In this document: positions 4,252-22,989 of the stretch, piece after piece | Position numbering within the stretch: the first letter of the stretch is position 1 | How the letters are laid out: the number at the start of each line of letters is the position of its first letter | IMG/VR virus record: IMGVR_UViG_3300037502_002605 | Coordinates: 1-24,367 of that record | Length of the DNA stretch: 24,367 bases | DNA from: a virus | Direction: 5' to 3' (one strand) | The notes under the pieces: model-generated | Told to the model about the DNA's origin: nothing | Databases searched by the model: none | Seen by the model: only the letters and a program-made list of their open reading frames with translations | Made by a program: the position numbers and the translations under genes

Positions 4252-4282
4252 TAGATAAATTTTAGTAAAGGGAGTGATTTTA

Positions 4283-6346
4283 TTGGCAAAAAGAATAGGT
4301 TTAGATGACGGTCACGGAATCTATACAGCAGGAAAAAGAACGCCAATATTTACAGATGGTACAAAAAGTGAATTAGGTAAAAACTATATGAATGAAAACC
4401 TTTTTAATAGGGCTGTAGTTAAGTATTTAGACAAACACCTAAAAGCTAGTGGGTTTGAAACGGTTTTAACAGCGCCAACAGATAGTGATGTTTCTCTTAA
4501 AAACCGTGTTGCAAAAGCAAATAGTTCTAACTTAGATTTATTTGTTTCTGTACACGCCAATGCAAATGCTGGTAGATGGGGAACTTGGGGAGGAACAGAA
4601 ACATATGTTTACCCAACTGGTGAATCAAAAAGAATTGGCTCAATTATACATAAACATTTAATGAAAGGTACGTCAATGAGAGACCGTGGTGTAAAAGATG
4701 GTTCTTGGCTTTATGTAATCAAAAATACAAGAATGCCATCGGTTCTTATTGAGGCTGGGTTTATGGATAACTTACGTGAGGCAAAACTTTTATTATCTGA
4801 CAGTTTTAGAAAAGAATGTGCTCTAGAGATTGCTATGGGCATATGTGAGGCTTACAATGTAAAGTTTGTTAATGGTGTGGACAAACAAGAGAAAATTGAG
4901 TATTACAGAGTTAGAACAAGTTGGTCTGATTCTAAATCTCAAAAAGGAGCTTTTAAACAATTAATAGGAGCTAAGGAACTGGCAGATTCTTTAAAATCTC
5001 AAGGATACAAAGTTTTTGATGACAAAGGTCAAACGGTTTACGACCCATCACCAAAAGTAGTAGAAAAAGAAAAATGGTTTAGAGTTAGAAAAACATGGTC
5101 TGATGAAAAATCACAGATTGGAGCTTTCCAAAGCTTAGATGGTGCAAAAGATTTAGCCAATACAAATGCCAAAGAGGGATATAAAGTATTTGATGATAAT
5201 GGTAAGATTGTATATACACCAAATATTGTAAAAGAAAATGAGTTTTATAGGGTTAGAGTTAGTTGGGGTGAACCTAAAACACAAATTGGTGCATTCAAAC
5301 AATTAGAGGGTGCTAAAGAGTTGTCTGACAGCAGAGCTGACGAAGGCTTTAAAGTTTTTGATGACAACGGAAAAATTGTTTACACCCCAAAGATTGTTGA
5401 AAAGAAACCAGAACCAACAAAACCTAAGCCAGAACCAGAGAAACCTGTAGTTGAAACTTTGTATCGTGTGAGAACATCTTGGGGAAATCCAAAATCTCAG
5501 ATTGGTGCGTTTAAAAACTTAGATAGTGCCAAATCTCTTGCTGACTCAAAAGCAAAAGACGGTTATAGAGTATTTGATGAAGATGGCAAGGTCGTTTATA
5601 CTCCAAAGGATTACAAAGAAGAAATCGTGGTTGATAAGCCAGCTTGTACAAATGAAAAACATACAGATATTTTAGGTAAACCAGAAACTACAGATTATGT
5701 TGCTATGGCTAAGTTTGTAAAAGAAAAGAATCCTAAAGCCGTTGATATTGATGAAATAGCAAAATCATTTGTAGAACAGGGTAAAAAGTATGGCATTCGT
5801 GGTGATATTGCATTTTGTCAATCAATAATTGAAACTGGTTGGTTTAAGTTTGATGGCGGAACGGCAGTTACACCAGACCAACATAATTATTGTGGTATGG
5901 GAGTTACTCAAAAAGGTATGAAAGGTGCATCTTTTGATACTGTTGTAGATGGTGTTAAAGGTCAGTTACATCACTTATGGGCTTATTCAAATAAAAATGA
6001 GCTACCGAACGATGAGAAGCCTTTGAGTCCTAGATATCATCTTGTTACTAGAGGTGTTGCACCACACTGGGAAGACCTTTCTATGAAGTGGGCTATGAAT
6101 GAGAATTATGGAACACATATCTTATCTTTATATAGCCAGCTAAAAGATTTTGTAGACAACTACGAGCACGAAAAAGAAGAAGACAATATTATTGAAACAC
6201 CAAGCGAACCAGAAGCTCCAGAAGATGTTATTGATAATGACGTTGAAAATTCAGAAAATTCTGATAATTATGACGAAGACGTTAATTTCTTTGCAAAAAT
6301 AATTATGATGATTATTAATAAAGTTAAAGAGATTTTGTCTAGGTAG
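4283..6346 (+). CDS. Bifunctional endolysin: N-acetylmuramoyl-L-alanine amidase, four repeats, glucosaminidase
   Basis: 687 aa. The start is TTG 4283, giving MAKRIGLDDGHG with AAAGGGAG 9 nt before it; a GTG at 4274 lies inside that site. Residues 1-200 are a zinc amidase of the Amidase_3 type: ligand region LDDGHG, the Glu of NEN, SVHANA, and the catalytic IEAGF. Four repeats of about 55 aa follow (near residues 205, 263, 319 and 391). Each runs from YRVR.SW through GAFK.L to GYKVFDD.G..VY, a SPOR-like or cell-wall-binding pattern. A Lys/Pro/Glu linker lies between repeats 3 and 4. Residues about 473-626 are a Glucosaminidase (lysozyme-fold) domain with the putative catalytic Glu in SIIETGWF and the NYCGMG segment. 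A tail rich in Asp/Glu and a short hydrophobic end follow. There is no signal peptide, so export needs the holin genes downstream. Confidence 0.92.
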   Translation: MAKRIGLDDGHGIYTAGKRTPIFTDGTKSELGKNYMNENLFNRAVVKYLDKHLKASGFETVLTAPTDSDVSLKNRVAKANSSNLDLFVSVHANANAGRWGTWGGTETYVYPTGESKRIGSIIHKHLMKGTSMRDRGVKDGSWLYVIKNTRMPSVLIEAGFMDNLREAKLLLSDSFRKECALEIAMGICEAYNVKFVNGVDKQEKIEYYRVRTSWSDSKSQKGAFKQLIGAKELADSLKSQGYKVFDDKGQTVYDPSPKVVEKEKWFRVRKTWSDEKSQIGAFQSLDGAKDLANTNAKEGYKVFDDNGKIVYTPNIVKENEFYRVRVSWGEPKTQIGAFKQLEGAKELSDSRADEGFKVFDDNGKIVYTPKIVEKKPEPTKPKPEPEKPVVETLYRVRTSWGNPKSQIGAFKNLDSAKSLADSKAKDGYRVFDEDGKVVYTPKDYKEEIVVDKPACTNEKHTDILGKPETTDYVAMAKFVKEKNPKAVDIDEIAKSFVEQGKKYGIRGDIAFCQSIIETGWFKFDGGTAVTPDQHNYCGMGVTQKGMKGASFDTVVDGVKGQLHHLWAYSNKNELPNDEKPLSPRYHLVTRGVAPHWEDLSMKWAMNENYGTHILSLYSQLKDFVDNYEHEKEEDNIIETPSEPEAPEDVIDNDVENSENSDNYDEDVNFFAKIIMMIINKVKEILSR
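4895..5620 (+). repeat. Four tandem coding repeats in the endolysin
   Basis: Units begin near 4897, 5071, 5240 and 5455. Each encodes the pattern Y/F-RVR-x-SW, QIGAFK-L, A-K-L-A, G-Y/F-KVFDD-GK-VYTP. Units 2-4 share more DNA identity with each other than unit 1 does. The spacer before unit 4 is expanded by a Lys/Pro/Glu linker. They are likely substrate- or wall-binding modules. Confidence 0.8.
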
Positions 6347-7982: not shown

Positions 7983-8000
7983 TTTAATTTCCACCTCTCA

Positions 8001-8035
8001 AATAAAAAGAATAGGCTCAATAAAGAACCTATTCT
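8001..8035 (-). terminator. Rho-independent terminator after the DNA polymerase gene
   Basis: Read on the - strand, AGAATAGG (8035-8028) pairs with CCTATTCT (8015-8008), with two more pairs across one mismatch and a 6-nt loop. It is followed by TTTTTATTT. It lies 36 nt past the polymerase stop. Its 5' arm straddles the predicted start point of the promoter at 8037-8065. Confidence 0.75.
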
Positions 8036-8036
8036 A

Positions 8037-8065
8037 ATTATATCATAACTATATGTATTTGTCAA
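8037..8065 (-). promoter_or_regulatory. Sigma-A-type promoter for the zinc-finger/resolvase operon
   Basis: TTGACA (8065-8060), 17-bp spacer, TATAAT (8042-8037), with TG one base before the -10 (extended -10). It is a full consensus match. The predicted start is near 8030, giving a leader of about 48 nt before the TTG at 7982. It sits immediately after the polymerase stop codon. Confidence 0.85.
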
Positions 8066-8070
8066 AATCT

Positions 8071-10173
8071 CTAAGGTTTACGCTTTTTGCTAGGTCGAAT
8101 AATTCTGCAATTGCCTAGGAATTTATCAATTTTGTTTTCATCTCTTACAAATTTACCATCAAGATGTCTCCAACCAGCTTCCTCAAATTCATTCTTTATT
8201 TGTACAACATCACCAACGAATAGTTTATCAATGTCGTCAGACCAAAAATCTTTCTTTTTGACTTTTAATAGTTTTTCATCACCATTATTAAGAATATAAA
8301 AAGTAACAAGAGGTGTAAACTTTTTGTTAACCTCAGTTACAAGAGCCACATTGTCTGGTAACTCTGGGAATGTAGAAACGGCATAACCTAGATTGTCTTT
8401 TTCAAATTGAATCTGTTCATACAGTTCAATTTTTGTTGGTGGATTATTTCTTACCGCTTCTTCGTATTCCTTAGCATTCTTTAAACGTTTTTCTTTTGTT
8501 TTGTCAACAAGGTTATTTTTATAAGCTACTGGTTTTTTAATTGTTTTTAAAACAAGTTTTTCTTCACCAGTACGCTTATTTATTTTCACGTTTTTTTGTA
8601 CAACATCTTTAAAGTTTTCATATTTTAAAGTATTAGGCTTCTTTTTATCTGTCATTGTAAGGTAAATTTCTAGAAGAATCTCTTTTTTGCCAAACCTTTT
8701 GAAAAAGTCTAGACGAATTAATATCTCAGCTTGTCTAGTGTTTAAAGATGTTTTTTCAATTAAATCTCTGACAAGCAAGTGGAATTCATTTTGGTTATAT
8801 GACGTTGTTTTTTCTAAGTCTAGCAACTCTTTTGCCACATTAGAGTTTAAATATTTTATAGATGCAATACCTTTATAGATGGCATTTTCATCTTTATTGT
8901 ATCTATAACTGGCACCAGACTTTCCAAATTCTACTGGTTTAATAGTAATTTTTTTGCTTTTAGCATAATTAATTATTTTACCAGTTTGTTCTTTATCGTC
9001 ATCCTGTAGATTGAGAGCTGTTGTCAAAAATTCTAAAGGATAATGATATCTTAGATATGCACCTATGTAACCAGTGTAGCTGTATGGTTTAGAGTGATTA
9101 TCCGAGAAACCATATCCACTTGCATCAGAGATAATTTTTAAAAATGGTTCAATAATCTCATCTATAGTTTCTTGTTTTTCATTGTATTCTGATTTCATGA
9201 ATTCTGAGAAACCTTGTCGTATCTTGTCAAGATATTGTTGAGTACCTTTTTTCTTAGAAAGTCCACGTCTAACAGTGTCAGATTCACTACCAGTGTGATT
9301 AGCAAATTTGGTAAGGAATTTCATAATTTGTTCTTGGAAAATCAAGAACCCTAACGTTGGTTTAAGAAAATCATTTAAAGCATCATGACCATTATCTTTC
9401 ATAATACCTTGAGAAAGCTCATATCTATAACTGTTACCACTAGGTCTAATTGCCCCATTTGCCATAGATAGTAAGTCAATATAGCTTGCATTAGGGTTCA
9501 TCTTGTGTATATTATCAAGTGTCTCTTGACTAAACAACTGTTTAACATATCTTTGTGCAGAATCACTTTCCATTTGAAATACACCTAGTGTTGATTCTGA
9601 CATAGATTTCCAAACATTAATATCATTTATATCAACATTATCTGGTGTTAATCTTTCTATATTGGCTATTTTACATGTTTCATTTATTAACTCAATGTTC
9701 ATAAGACCTAATACATCAAGCTTAACAAAGTTTTTACTGTCAAGTTCACCCATATCAACAGCAGAAACTTTATATTTGCTATCTTTAGTATAAAGTGTTG
9801 AAACTGTTTCATCAAGGTTTACTGGTGAGACAACGAAGCCACTTGGGTGACTACCCATGGCAAAAATAACACCAACCATTAAGTCAACATATTTAAACAA
9901 CTCTGGGTATCTCTTTTTGTATGATTCATCTATATGGTCTTTACCATTGTATTTTTCTACAGATTTAGATATCATATCTACCTCTTGTAGTGACATATCT
10001 AAAAACCTGCCAACCTCTCTTATTGCCCCCTTTAAAGCAAAAGTATTAAACGTTATGATTTCAGAGAAGTCAACACCGTCTATCGTTGCGATAAAATCAA
10101 TGACTTCTTGCCTGCGATTTGGAGGGAAATCTACATCAATATCTGGTAGTGAAACTCTATCTGGATTTAAAAA
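8071..10173 (-). CDS. dnaE: DNA polymerase III alpha subunit (DnaE type), exon 2 (C-terminal 700 aa)
   Basis: This exon continues exon 1 (12475-11267) after intron removal, giving 1,103 aa in total. It opens FLNPDRVSLPDIDVDF, with the two catalytic Asp of the polymerase (PDIDVDF). It then shows HPSGFVVSP, the third catalytic Asp in KLDVLGL, GVFQMES, IRPSGN, FQEQIM, RRGLSKKK and GYGFSDNHSKPYSY, all in the usual C-family polymerase order. A C-terminal region with a likely OB fold follows. The TTG at 10176 is not a start: its final G is the last base of the intron. Role: replicative chain elongation of phage DNA. No PolC-type exonuclease domain is present. Confidence 0.93.
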   Translation of the reverse strand, partial: FLNPDRVSLPDIDVDFPPNRRQEVIDFIATIDGVDFSEIITFNTFALKGAIREVGRFLDMSLQEVDMISKSVEKYNGKDHIDESYKKRYPELFKYVDLMVGVIFAMGSHPSGFVVSPVNLDETVSTLYTKDSKYKVSAVDMGELDSKNFVKLDVLGLMNIELINETCKIANIERLTPDNVDINDINVWKSMSESTLGVFQMESDSAQRYVKQLFSQETLDNIHKMNPNASYIDLLSMANGAIRPSGNSYRYELSQGIMKDNGHDALNDFLKPTLGFLIFQEQIMKFLTKFANHTGSESDTVRRGLSKKKGTQQYLDKIRQGFSEFMKSEYNEKQETIDEIIEPFLKIISDASGYGFSDNHSKPYSYTGYIGAYLRYHYPLEFLTTALNLQDDDKEQTGKIINYAKSKKITIKPVEFGKSGASYRYNKDENAIYKGIASIKYLNSNVAKELLDLEKTTSYNQNEFHLLVRDLIEKTSLNTRQAEILIRLDFFKRFGKKEILLEIYLTMTDKKKPNTLKYENFKDVVQKNVKINKRTGEEKLVLKTIKKPVAYKNNLVDKTKEKRLKNAKEYEEAVRNNPPTKIELYEQIQFEKDNLGYAVSTFPELPDNVALVTEVNKKFTPLVTFYILNNGDEKLLKVKKKDFWSDDIDKLFVGDVVQIKNEFEEAGWRHLDGKFVRDENKIDKFLGNCRIIRPSKKRKP

Positions 10174-11266
10174 CAATTTGTTATCGTAAGGCTCTTTATC
10201 CTTACTTCTTACACTTTCATGTAAGTTCAGACTATATCATTACTTATGGGGAATTTACTTTATTTATATATAAATTTATCTTTTTTTCTTTTTAGATAAA
10301 ACTCTCCTGTGTCATCATTATATATCATTTTATAAAACTTAGATATGTTGTCTGTTCTACTAATCTTTATGTATTTAGTATTACTTCCAATCCTCTTTTT
10401 ACTTTCATTGTATATGTTTGAAGAAAATCCCATATCTCTAAAATAACTATTTAAACCATTTATGAAATTAACACTTGCACAGGTTATGCTTATTTGTTGG
10501 TAATCTCCATATTTTGTACGATTGGTAGAAATGCTTCCATCACCATCAAAATATCCTCTAATAAAATGTGGCATAAATTCTTCTCCCAAACTATGAAATT
10601 CAGAAATTAATGATTTCCTTTCTTTTAATCCATATTGTGACAAGAAATCAATAGCTTCTTGTGATATATAAATTAAAGTATAACCATTTTTATTTTTATA
10701 TATCTTCCTATTTATACCACAATATTCTTTTATACTTTCTAATATATGTAAATCATTGGAGGATATTGCTATTCTATATCTCCTAGAATGTGAATCATAA
10801 TACAGGCATCCGTCTGACATTATGAATCCGAATATGTATGAATTTATATAATTAAATCCATCTTCATATATATTTTTATCATATTTAAATACAACATTTC
10901 TATACCCAGTAGACCTACATTCTTTACTACAATAAACCCTATTATAGCTTTTTGATTTAAAAAATATATTACAATTTTTACAATTCTTATTATACATTTT
11001 CCAATATTCATCCTTATACTTATCCCCATAAGTATTTTGTACTCTTGGATATTTCACCATATCGCAAGACTTAGGTTACTTTATCTAGTCGTTGAACCTT
11101 CTACTTATTTCTAAGTAGCTTGGATGCGGATTTCCCAATCCTAAATATTTTTACTATATCTTAGCTAGTTAAGCTAAGCCCTTATCTATGTCACCATGAT
11201 AAGTTAGTAATCTAGGCTCTAAGGGGTTCCCCGCAATTCACAAAATTTAATTCCGCTTTTAAGTTA
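10174..11266 (-). other. Group I intron in dnaE with endonuclease ORF
   Basis: 1,093 nt. P1: exon bases TTCCGT (11272-11267) pair with GCGGAA (11256-11251), leaving the required U-G at the splice site. The core GAATTGCGGGGAACCCC lies at 11239-11223 and CCGCATCCAAGC at 11129-11118. P7 is TTCAACGACTA (11096-11086) with TAGTCTGAA (10234-10226). P9 is CTTACA/TGTAAG (10225-10208) and P9.1 is GTAAGG/CCTTAC (10205-10186). The intron ends in G (10174). The 3' exon start TTTTA can pair with TAAAA just before the internal guide (P10). Splicing joins ...HELNFFR to FLNPDRV..., the normal polymerase sequence. The ORF lies between the P7 strands, probably in the P8 loop. Confidence 0.93.
10260..11060 (-). 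CDS. Intron-encoded LAGLIDADG homing endonuclease with N-terminal zinc finger
   Basis: 266 aa. Two LAGLIDADG motifs are visible: YIFGFIMSDG (residues 75-84) and HFIRGYFDGD (165-174). Both end in the catalytic acidic residue, and about 90 residues separate them, as in single-chain enzymes. Residues 27-48 hold Cys27-x2-Cys30 and Cys44-x3-Cys48, a small zinc finger probably aiding DNA recognition. Expected role: cutting intron-less dnaE alleles to spread the intron. ATG 11060 has no recognisable ribosome binding site and lies close to the P7/P3 elements, so translation is probably weak or structure-controlled. The ORF is complete and looks intact. Confidence 0.9.
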   Translation of the reverse strand: MVKYPRVQNTYGDKYKDEYWKMYNKNCKNCNIFFKSKSYNRVYCSKECRSTGYRNVVFKYDKNIYEDGFNYINSYIFGFIMSDGCLYYDSHSRRYRIAISSNDLHILESIKEYCGINRKIYKNKNGYTLIYISQEAIDFLSQYGLKERKSLISEFHSLGEEFMPHFIRGYFDGDGSISTNRTKYGDYQQISITCASVNFINGLNSYFRDMGFSSNIYNESKKRIGSNTKYIKISRTDNISKFYKMIYNDDTGEFYLKRKKDKFIYK

Positions 11267-12475
11267 ACGGAAAAAGTTAAGTTCATGTTTAACAGAGTCC
11301 ATCTCTGTAATACCAAGCAGGTAGGCTATTAAACTCCCACAACAACTCCCTCTTCCATAGCCATGTTTAATCCCGTTTTCATTAGACCAGTCAATTATAT
11401 GTTTCTGCAACAACATGTAATCAACCGCTTCTAGTTTTTCATATGTTTTAAACTCTTCTTTGATTCTGTCAAAATAAACTTTTTTCTCATCTTTTGGAAG
11501 TTTATTTATACCACGTTCAATAGTACCTTCATTTATTTTTTCTTTAAATACTTCAATTGGTTTGTCATATAGTTTAGGATACTTAGGCGAATCATCAAGA
11601 GTAAATGGCTCTACCATATCAGCCATAACGTTTGTATTGTGGATAGCTTCAAGGTATATATTTCTTGGTAGCGCATTTTGTTCTTCAAACATCTTTACAA
11701 ACTCTTCGTATGATTTAAACGTTAAATCAAAGCTATCTTCATCTCCATAGTCAATACCTTTTGATTTAATAAATAGGCTTCTTGCCTCGGCATGTTCCTT
11801 GTTTAAAGCGTGTGTATCAGTACCTCCAATTAACGGTATATCCAAATCTCTAGATAGTCTAAGCAACAATTGATTAAACTCTATCTGTTTAGGGTGATTG
11901 TGCGCTTGAATTTCAAAAAACATTCTATGCTTGTTGTCTCCCATAAAGTTTAATAAATCATCTAACTCTCTTTCTGAGTTTTTATTGCCATTTAATGATT
12001 CTTGGTATAGACGATAGATTGGTGATGCAATACACGCAGAAGTCATGAGAATATTATCTGACGTGTTTTTTAGCTCATCAAAAGTGATACGTGGATTGAA
12101 ATAAAAGTGACCATCCTCTTTTTTAAAAGATTGAGATGTAAGTTTGTTAAGTTCTAAGTATCCATCATAATTTTTTGCCATCAACATGTAGTGATAGTTA
12201 TCTCTCTCACGCAACGGCTCACCGTTAACATCGACTATACCTTTGGTTAAATAGATTTCATTTGCGTGAATGTACTTCATACCACGCTCTTCTATATCAC
12301 GCTTTTTATTCACATGATTTAATACACTCCCATGTTCAGAGAATGCGATTGCACCCATACCTAGCTGTTCTGCCTTGTCTAGATATTGACTATATTTAGT
12401 TATAGAATCAGCTCCAGAAGAAACGGTTAGGTTCGATAAATCAGAATGTATATGGTAAACAGTATAATTATCCAA
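11267..12475 (-). CDS. dnaE: DNA polymerase III alpha subunit (DnaE type), exon 1 (N-terminal 403 aa)
   Basis: Start at TTG 12475 after AAAGGAGAT. The N-terminal PHP domain shows HIHSDLSN, the metal-site segments FSEHGS and ANEIYL, SACIASP, and GGTDTHAL, so its metal ligands look kept. The exon ends with the polymerase segment GYGRGSCCGSLIAYLLGIT, the phosphate-contacting region of C-family polymerases. The last exon codon is CGT (11269-11267); the TAA that follows is intron sequence and is not a true end of the protein. Without splicing the product would lack all catalytic Asp residues. It lies 17 nt after the 220-aa gene and shares its promoter at 13196. Confidence 0.93.
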
Positions 12476-22155: not shown

Positions 22156-22989
22156 TTATTCTCCTTTAAAGTTGTTTAAATTTGGTGTACCCCAAGCATG
22201 AAACCTGTCTTTTTTATCTTCTTTTGCAAACGAATATTCTCTATCACTGATATCTTTTAAGATATTGTAAATACTTTCAAACGAACTTCCTTTGTTATTT
22301 TTTTTGTTATAAGAAACAATTAAAGATACAATACCAACTAAAGCAGGTGTAGCCATAGAAGTTCCAGACATTTCAATATATGTATTGTTTAGGTGAGAGC
22401 TTACGATTTTTTCTGATGGCATCACAAAATCCATATCAAAGCCATAGTTTGAAGTTTTTGATAGCATAAGATTGTCGTCTGTTCCCCCAACAGCTATAGT
22501 AAAATCATATTTTGCCGGATAATCAATCCTTTGTTTACCACTATTACCCACTGCACAAACAATAATCATTCCGTCTTGACTAGCTTTTTTAAGTCTTTGT
22601 TCAACTATTTGTGGCAATTCATTTACTGAACCTAAGCTCAAACATAATATGTCGGCTTTTATGTTTTTCGCATAAGTAATGCCGTCAACAACTTCTGTCA
22701 TTGTGCTTAAGTTATTTTTCTGTATTGAATTAGCCACATAAATATTTGATTCTGGTGCAAAGCTAGTTATAATCCCTGCAACATGTGTGCCATGACCACT
22801 ATTGTCAAAAATCTCTTTTGAGTTTTTCTTGACATTATAAAATCCTTTTATTTTTTCTTTTAAAATCTCATGCTCTGGGTCAACACCACTATCGACAATA
22901 CAGATATTAACTCTCTCGCCTTTTATATCGTATTTTTCCCAAAAGGTTTTTGCACCTAAGATTTCAACCCATTTATTAAAATCATTCAC
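22156..22989 (-). CDS. Intracellular subtilisin-like serine protease (S8)
   Basis: 277 aa. The catalytic triad is complete: Asp33 in IVDSGVD, His66 in NSGHGTHVAGI, Ser211 in SGTSMATPALVG, with oxyanion Asn149 in AVGNSG. The first 28 residues lead straight into the core. There is no signal peptide and no propeptide, so it should act inside the cell. The start is GTG 22989, overlapping the upstream gene by 8 nt, with GGTGAT close by. It sits between a one-helix membrane protein and the RNA ligase. The target is unknown; a host protein, a defence factor or processing of a phage protein are all possible. Confidence 0.93.
   Translation of the reverse strand: MNDFNKWVEILGAKTFWEKYDIKGERVNICIVDSGVDPEHEILKEKIKGFYNVKKNSKEIFDNSGHGTHVAGIITSFAPESNIYVANSIQKNNLSTMTEVVDGITYAKNIKADILCLSLGSVNELPQIVEQRLKKASQDGMIIVCAVGNSGKQRIDYPAKYDFTIAVGGTDDNLMLSKTSNYGFDMDFVMPSEKIVSSHLNNTYIEMSGTSMATPALVGIVSLIVSYNKKNNKGSSFESIYNILKDISDREYSFAKEDKKDRFHAWGTPNLNNFKGE

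Follow-up and report, generated by a model that had tools for sequence, protein, structure and literature searches.

A group I intron with a LAGLIDADG endonuclease reading frame in the active-site DNA of a phage family-C DNA polymerase gene

Our analysis of a 24,367-base virus fragment (hereafter the window, meaning this whole stretch at its full length) indicates, on sequence grounds, that positions 10174 to 11266 are a group I intron in a phage gene for a family-C (DnaE/PolIII-alpha-like) DNA polymerase (Table 1). An initial annotation of this DNA had proposed that such an intron splits a DnaE-type polymerase gene ahead of the PDIDVDF motif, and matches to the Rfam model RF00028, blastn and covariation all agree with it; the predicted LAGLIDADG open reading frame (ORF) inside the intron is an addition to that earlier reading. 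The ribozyme core, both boundaries, the restored frame, the intact ORF and the empty sites of relatives come directly out of the computation, and splicing of the intron is strongly predicted. From these features we infer splicing in vivo, endonuclease activity, its target and homing. The element is very probably a mobile group I intron, which would splice itself out to restore the polymerase and whose LAGLIDADG enzyme would copy it into empty sites. Introns of this kind are well known; what is new is that DnaE active-site DNA has been occupied by them recurrently.

Table 1. Positions of the intron, its structural elements, its ORF and the flanking exons in the window (a slash marks a splice junction or insertion point here and in the text).
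Feature	Position	Strand	Basis
Group I intron, 1,093 nt	10174-11266	-	RF00028 half-matches, covariation, relatives' junctions, common 3' end
dnaE-like polymerase exon 1 (PHP, start of PolIII-alpha domain)	11267-12475	-	Pfam PF02811, PF07733
dnaE-like polymerase exon 2 (rest of palm, fingers, HHH)	8071-10173	-	PF07733 (93-260), PF17657, PF14579
Predicted LAGLIDADG homing endonuclease ORF, P8 region	10260-11060	-	PF14528 LAGLIDADG_3 (E 7e-20), PF14527, PHROG 4645 (E 1e-25)
P1, exon UUCCGU (11267-11272) with IGS GCGGAA (11251-11256)	11251-11272	-	direct reading
P10, IGS AAAA with exon-2 UUUU	11257-11260 (IGS)	-	
5' core	11034-11246	-	RF00028, covariation
P3, 5' strand AUUUUGU and 3' strand ACAAAAU	11240-11246 and 11034-11040	-	
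P4, then P5 with extension	11231-11235 and 11125-11129 (P4)	-	
P6/P6a	11101-11118	-	
P7, 5' strand GACUA and 3' strand UAGUC	11086-11090 and 10230-10234	-	
P7.2-like hairpin	11044-11068	-	
P8, 5' strand ACUUAUGGGG and 3' strand CCCCAUAAGU	11024-11033 and 10242-10251	-	
3' core (P8 3' strand, P7 3' strand, P9, terminal hairpin, omega-G)	10174-10251	-	RF00028
P9	10208-10225	-	
Terminal hairpin GUAAGG...CCUUAC	10186-10205	-	

The Rfam search suggested in the initial annotation gave two matches to RF00028 when confined to 10100-11330, at 11034-11248 (32.0 bits, E 4.8e-6) and at 10210-10242 (21.9 bits, profile positions 219-251), in the correct order and both on the minus strand; a scan of the whole window gave no intron match at E<=1. 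The ORF interrupts the core, which keeps each half under the 50-bit gathering score; fragmented Rfam matches have likewise been reported for introns of Bastillevirinae phages (PMC11878797). By blastn, the core is similar to introns in polA, lysin and terminase genes of Staphylococcus, Bacillus and Listeria phages, with E values down to 7e-29. In an alignment of the 5' core of 11 introns (the window intron and 10 related ones), compensatory changes on both sides were found for 27 of the 38 predicted pairs. P3, P4, P6, P7 and P8 all form in the window intron. Of these, P3, P7 and P8 pair perfectly, P8 through 10 pairs whose strands lie about 780 nt apart with the ORF between them, and the polA intron of Listeria phage LMLPA3 forms P3 and P8 with other letters, its P8 being a different 14-bp helix. 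As for subgroup IA, marked by P7.1/P7.2 between P7 and P3, a P7.2-like hairpin is present and P7.1 has no confident assignment; the subgrouping of phage group I introns has itself been judged insufficient (PMC11878797).

Both splice sites can be placed to the nucleotide, and they are those initially annotated. At the 5' end, the pairing of UUCCGU with GCGGAA can be read directly, with the U.G pair of P1 located at the splice site, at 11267. The guide AAAAGCGGAA is the complement of the joined UUCCGU/UUUU, and the P10 that had been put forward as a possibility can form, although it is small, with four A-U pairs only. The intron starts at 11266 with UAAC; because its first codon is an in-frame stop, ribosomes would be kept out of the core. 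At the 3' end, the intron terminates in an omega-G at 10174. The LMLPA3 polA intron and an ORF-less intron in an RNR-like gene of a huge phage (LR756504) agree with the window as far as ...GATAACAAAYTG and differ from the very next base on (10174/10173). Since introns in other genes share this end and diverge exactly there, the 3' splice site is fixed independently. The common end has the consensus ...AACAAAYTG and is preceded by the terminal hairpin. In LMLPA3, the exons AACCCU/AAUAUG are complementary to the guide UAUAUUGGGGUU, with AACCCU pairing to GGGGUU in P1 and AAUAUG to UAUAUU in P10; the LMLPA3 guide thus fits its own exons, and guide and target therefore change together. Joining 11267 to 10173 yields a polymerase of 1,103 amino acids (1,104 codons with the stop), which reads NFFR/FLNPDRVSLPDIDVDF across the junction, as had been predicted, and aligns there without a gap to three cultured relatives, FADO, BcoS-136 and 2S-4. 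Nearly all relatives in IMG/VR are uninterrupted through the junction, and those uninterrupted relatives that have a readable site, about 70 to 73, align through exactly this junction rather than with other boundaries.

The interrupted gene has the features of a family-C DNA polymerase, as seen with Pfam and by structure alignment: PHP, a palm with PDxDxD and KxD, fingers and HHH. Exon 1 comprises 403 codons with a TTG start, and exon 2 comprises 700 codons plus the stop and includes the catalytic PDIDVDF and KLD; the ORFs that contain them span 11264-12475 (PHP and the start of PolIII-alpha by Pfam) and 8071-10176 (the remainder of PolIII-alpha, fingers and HHH). Matches to PHROG 405 (phage DNA polymerase) cover profile positions 42-433 in exon 1 and 434-1067 in exon 2, abutting to the residue. 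Exon 2 can be aligned to the E. coli and Taq PolIII-alpha structures, and in E. coli PolIII-alpha (2hnh) the break corresponds by this alignment to R390/F391, eleven residues before D401, and the KLD of the window to D555. We take D401, D403 and D555 of E. coli DnaE to be the catalytic residues.

Both DNA similarity and gene neighbours place the window near the Bacillus siphoviruses FADO, PJN02, 2S-4 and vB_BcoS-136. The neighbours identified by Pfam are a thymidine kinase, a thymidylate synthase and a RuvC-like gene, and those recognized by eye from translations are ClpP-, DHFR- and ligase-like. Behind dnaE, positions 7997-8091 contain a hairpin with a T run that resembles an intrinsic terminator, and a sub-threshold Rfam match to L20_leader at the same place (25.9 bits, E 0.28) was discarded in its favour. 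The window also contains a subtilase gene (22156-22989; Peptidase_S8, E 1e-39) and an endolysin-like ORF (4274-6346) with an amidase-like N-terminal part, a glucosaminidase-like C-terminal part and four similar repeats of about 50 residues (YRVRTSW...GAFKQL..AKELAD...GYKVFDD.G.VVY). In Bacillus phage vB_BcoS-136 (L002), whose dnaE is intron-less, a free-standing HNH endonuclease gene immediately precedes dnaE, and the annotation gives the thymidine kinase as two overlapping pieces.

The ORF carried by the intron contains the motifs GFIMSDG and GYFDGDG, and its N-terminus has a Cys-x2-Cys...Cys-x3-Cys arrangement. Two start codons are candidates: ATG 11060, which lies in the P7.2-like hairpin and would give 266 amino acids, the first codons doubling as P3 and P8 strands, and ATG 10997, 13 nt after AAGGA, which would give 245 amino acids encoded wholly inside the P8 loop. 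The nearest relatives of the predicted protein are about 30% identical, and several of them occur in other phage polymerase genes, including a polA-like gene (L007) and the polymerase of Alicyclobacillus phage MMB025. The closest match of solved structure is I-MsoI (E 0.018, motif only), and an AlphaFold2 model, built without an alignment, was set aside at a pLDDT of 39.5. Among the relatives with the same ribozyme, LR756504 has no ORF and LMLPA3 encodes a NUMOD4/HNH enzyme. Because LMLPA3 is close in its ribozyme and yet has this other enzyme, ribozyme and endonuclease must have been combined independently.

We propose that the intron RNA would fold into the standard P3-P9 core, including a P7.2-type element like that of subgroup IA, and that pairing of UUCCGU with the internal guide through U.G would select the 5' splice site, where guanosine would be the attacking group. 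The end ...UUCCGU would then be ligated to UUUUUA... after the terminal G10174, giving one uninterrupted family-C polymerase. Splicing has been demonstrated for related introns of Bastillevirinae, for example those in the terminase and polymerase genes of SIOphi (PMC11878797). As for mobility, the LAGLIDADG enzyme would recognize the empty exon junction AACTTTTTCCGT/TTTTTAAATCC, about 22 bp encoding NFFRFLNP, in coinfecting related phages; repair of the cut junction would copy the intron in, and the recipient would become intron-plus. Near-invariant active-site DNA would be hard for relatives to lose as a target, which would favour persistence. In phage PhiPA3, an intron-encoded nuclease, associated with conserved Asp codons of an RNA polymerase, interferes with a competing phage (PMC11620839).

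The initial annotation had located the insertion in the most conserved part of the polymerase, and the comparison with relatives bears this out: among all 22-nt stretches of the gene, the one spanning the junction is in the top 0.18% for conservation across 72 intron-less relatives, which had been collected by motifs located in other parts of the gene. A search of IMG/VR for the intron end followed by FLNP codons matched 13 viral contigs, ten by chance, and three of the matches are real, revealing further introns at the same site (L104, L110 and L111). When 84,980 bacterial and archaeal genomes were scanned for the intron end with FLNP[ED]R, the sole match (L115) was intergenic and due to chance. 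The three viral introns share with ours the identical insertion point, a related terminal hairpin and the ...AACAAATTG end; they differ in having no ORF, in belonging to a separate ribozyme clade and in residing in polymerases only about 25% identical to that of the window over exon 1. A single clade uniting all four was rejected (AU p 0.011, from a small alignment and for a group named post hoc), which we regard as moderate evidence. Because these same-site introns form a separate ribozyme clade, introns have probably arrived on two or more occasions at a single nucleotide, R390/F391. Among relatives of another of these same-site introns, the R/F site is filled in L119 and L120 and empty in L121 and L123, the last two being near relatives of L110; L121 has the site 33 nt downstream filled, and L123 has both empty. 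In L110 and L111 both sites, R/F and the one 33 nt downstream, are filled.

Loss of mobility in an element whose ribozyme still splices, with an endonuclease that is inactive, serves as a maturase only or cuts another locus, is unlikely. The endonuclease ORF is intact and keeps both acidic motif residues, the DNA at the exon junction belongs to the best conserved of the polymerase gene, and filled and empty sites coexist in the relatives of the other same-site introns, all of which argues for mobility. An immobile element would nevertheless agree with the occurrence of the intron in a single phage among 64%-identical relatives, with no direct sign of recent spread, and with the loose bond between ORF and ribozyme seen in LMLPA3 and LR756504; a role for LAGLIDADG proteins as maturases is possible, as in the Thermotoga neapolitana case (PMC3984707). 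We found no intron-less close relative (>70%) of the window phage that would show recent homing directly.

Returning to the mobile, self-splicing intron, its splicing has to be weighed against a split polymerase, in which two polypeptides would assemble and a free-standing endonuclease gene would lie between their ORFs. The stop at the first intron codon would indeed terminate exon 1, and the dnaE genes of Krampus and Cuke are annotated as two adjacent coding sequences with little between them (having no intron-sized insert, they were rejected as intron cases). We regard this as very improbable here, given that the palm domain itself would be cut, 11 residues ahead of the catalytic Asp pair, that exon 2 lacks a convincing start codon (the TTG at 10176 lies at the junction, with no Shine-Dalgarno), and that the 27 covarying pairs and matching guides point to selection on the RNA. 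A dead polymerase gene with a degenerate ribozyme, in a phage relying on the host polymerase, is just as hard to credit, since the reading frame is open throughout both exons, which match relatives at about 60% identity from end to end, and the window copy has complete pairing in P3, P4, P7, P8 and P9.

The DnaE location of the self-splicing intron, pointed out in the initial annotation, is not unique to the window, as DnaE-type genes of other phages have group I introns at the same and nearby sites. At the second site, 33 nt downstream and immediately following the codon of the first catalytic Asp (PD/xDxD), group I introns occur in five sampled records: Lactobacillus phage ATCC 8014-B2 (GIY-YIG), Lysinibacillus phage LC76P1 (LAGLIDADG), L073, L110 and L111 (HNH). 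These too lie in phage dnaE active-site DNA, but at another site, and their ORFs, where present, are of other families and positions than that of the window. In the first two phages dnaE is annotated as two genes. In ATCC 8014-B2, the gap (L116, 1636-2669) is a group I intron by Rfam with a GIY-YIG-like ORF, and the gap in LC76P1 (L005, 3895-5069) resembles a group I intron with a LAGLIDADG ORF, an assignment made by reading the sequence, with no Rfam report there. Further downstream, L076 has a 253-nt intron, devoid of an ORF, immediately behind the codon equivalent to D555, and in L078 a GIY-YIG intron lies at, or 3 nt before, that Asp codon. In E. coli numbering, the fixed sites in dnaE are R390/F391, D401/F402 and a position at or within one codon of D555, in polymerases down to about 25% identical.

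Other interruptions of phage dnaE are of a different nature or position. Those at residues ~153-164 in L071, L074 and L082 and at residue ~704 in L080 were rejected as introns, being in-frame inteins instead; the dnaE inteins (L071, L082, L074, L080 and L104) end in HN before the next extein. The dnaE of L104 combines an intein at GRGS/GAGS and a group I intron in one gene, and two more interruptions at other positions were seen in L122 (residues ~659-666) and L126 (~619-659). In the literature searched, which included few subscription papers, we found no description of a phage dnaE gene with a group I intron, nor of recurrent introns at fixed points of dnaE active-site DNA.

How does this intron compare with known phage introns? 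Those in the SPO1 and Bastille polymerase genes encode what we take to be HNH-type nicking enzymes and lie in a family-A polymerase, whereas the window combines a family-C polymerase with LAGLIDADG. The likeness is that all are endonuclease-bearing group I introns in polymerase genes of phages of Gram-positive hosts, I-HmuI and I-BasI being the enzymes of the two known systems (PMC3984707, PMC11878797). The polA introns of Staphylococcus phage A5W (I-KsaII/I-KsaIII) and the lysin and terminase introns of Staphylococcus and Bacillus Herelleviridae are 72-79% identical to ours in the core over about 160 nt, and differ from it in host gene, endonuclease and a divergent 3' domain. The three nearest ribozymes in the tree are those of LR756504, L113 and the polA intron of LMLPA3 (Listeria, Pecentumvirus, L006). 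The last shares with the window intron the 5' core, the 3' terminal hairpin to the last base, an ORF in the P8 region and a DNA polymerase as host gene, but its polymerase is of family A, its enzyme is NUMOD4/HNH instead of LAGLIDADG, and its P3 and P8 sequences are different. The polA gene of LMLPA3 is annotated in at least four unjoined pieces, and one of the gaps is this closely related intron.

The phage introns known so far lie mostly in genes for family-A polymerase, ribonucleotide reductase, thymidylate synthase and terminase, to which the family-C polymerase can now be added as another repeatedly invaded host gene. Its active-site DNA may be a standing target of mobile introns across unrelated phages, reached at fixed nucleotides by unrelated combinations of ribozyme and endonuclease, a generalization whose chances we judge to be even. 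The occupant of a site and its presence or absence vary between relatives, as expected if the endonucleases are homing agents or cross-phage weapons; if this is true, they would aim at a sequence that is unable to mutate away. Some split dnaE annotations in phages would really be spliced genes. With two insertion points 33 nt apart, examples in which these are filled, empty or both filled, and no fewer than three endonuclease families, these phages offer a tractable set, in which it can now be tested how homing enzymes reach one base in very distant phages, and whether the endonucleases play a part when coinfecting phages compete, as has been shown for an RNA polymerase intron of PhiPA3 (PMC11620839).
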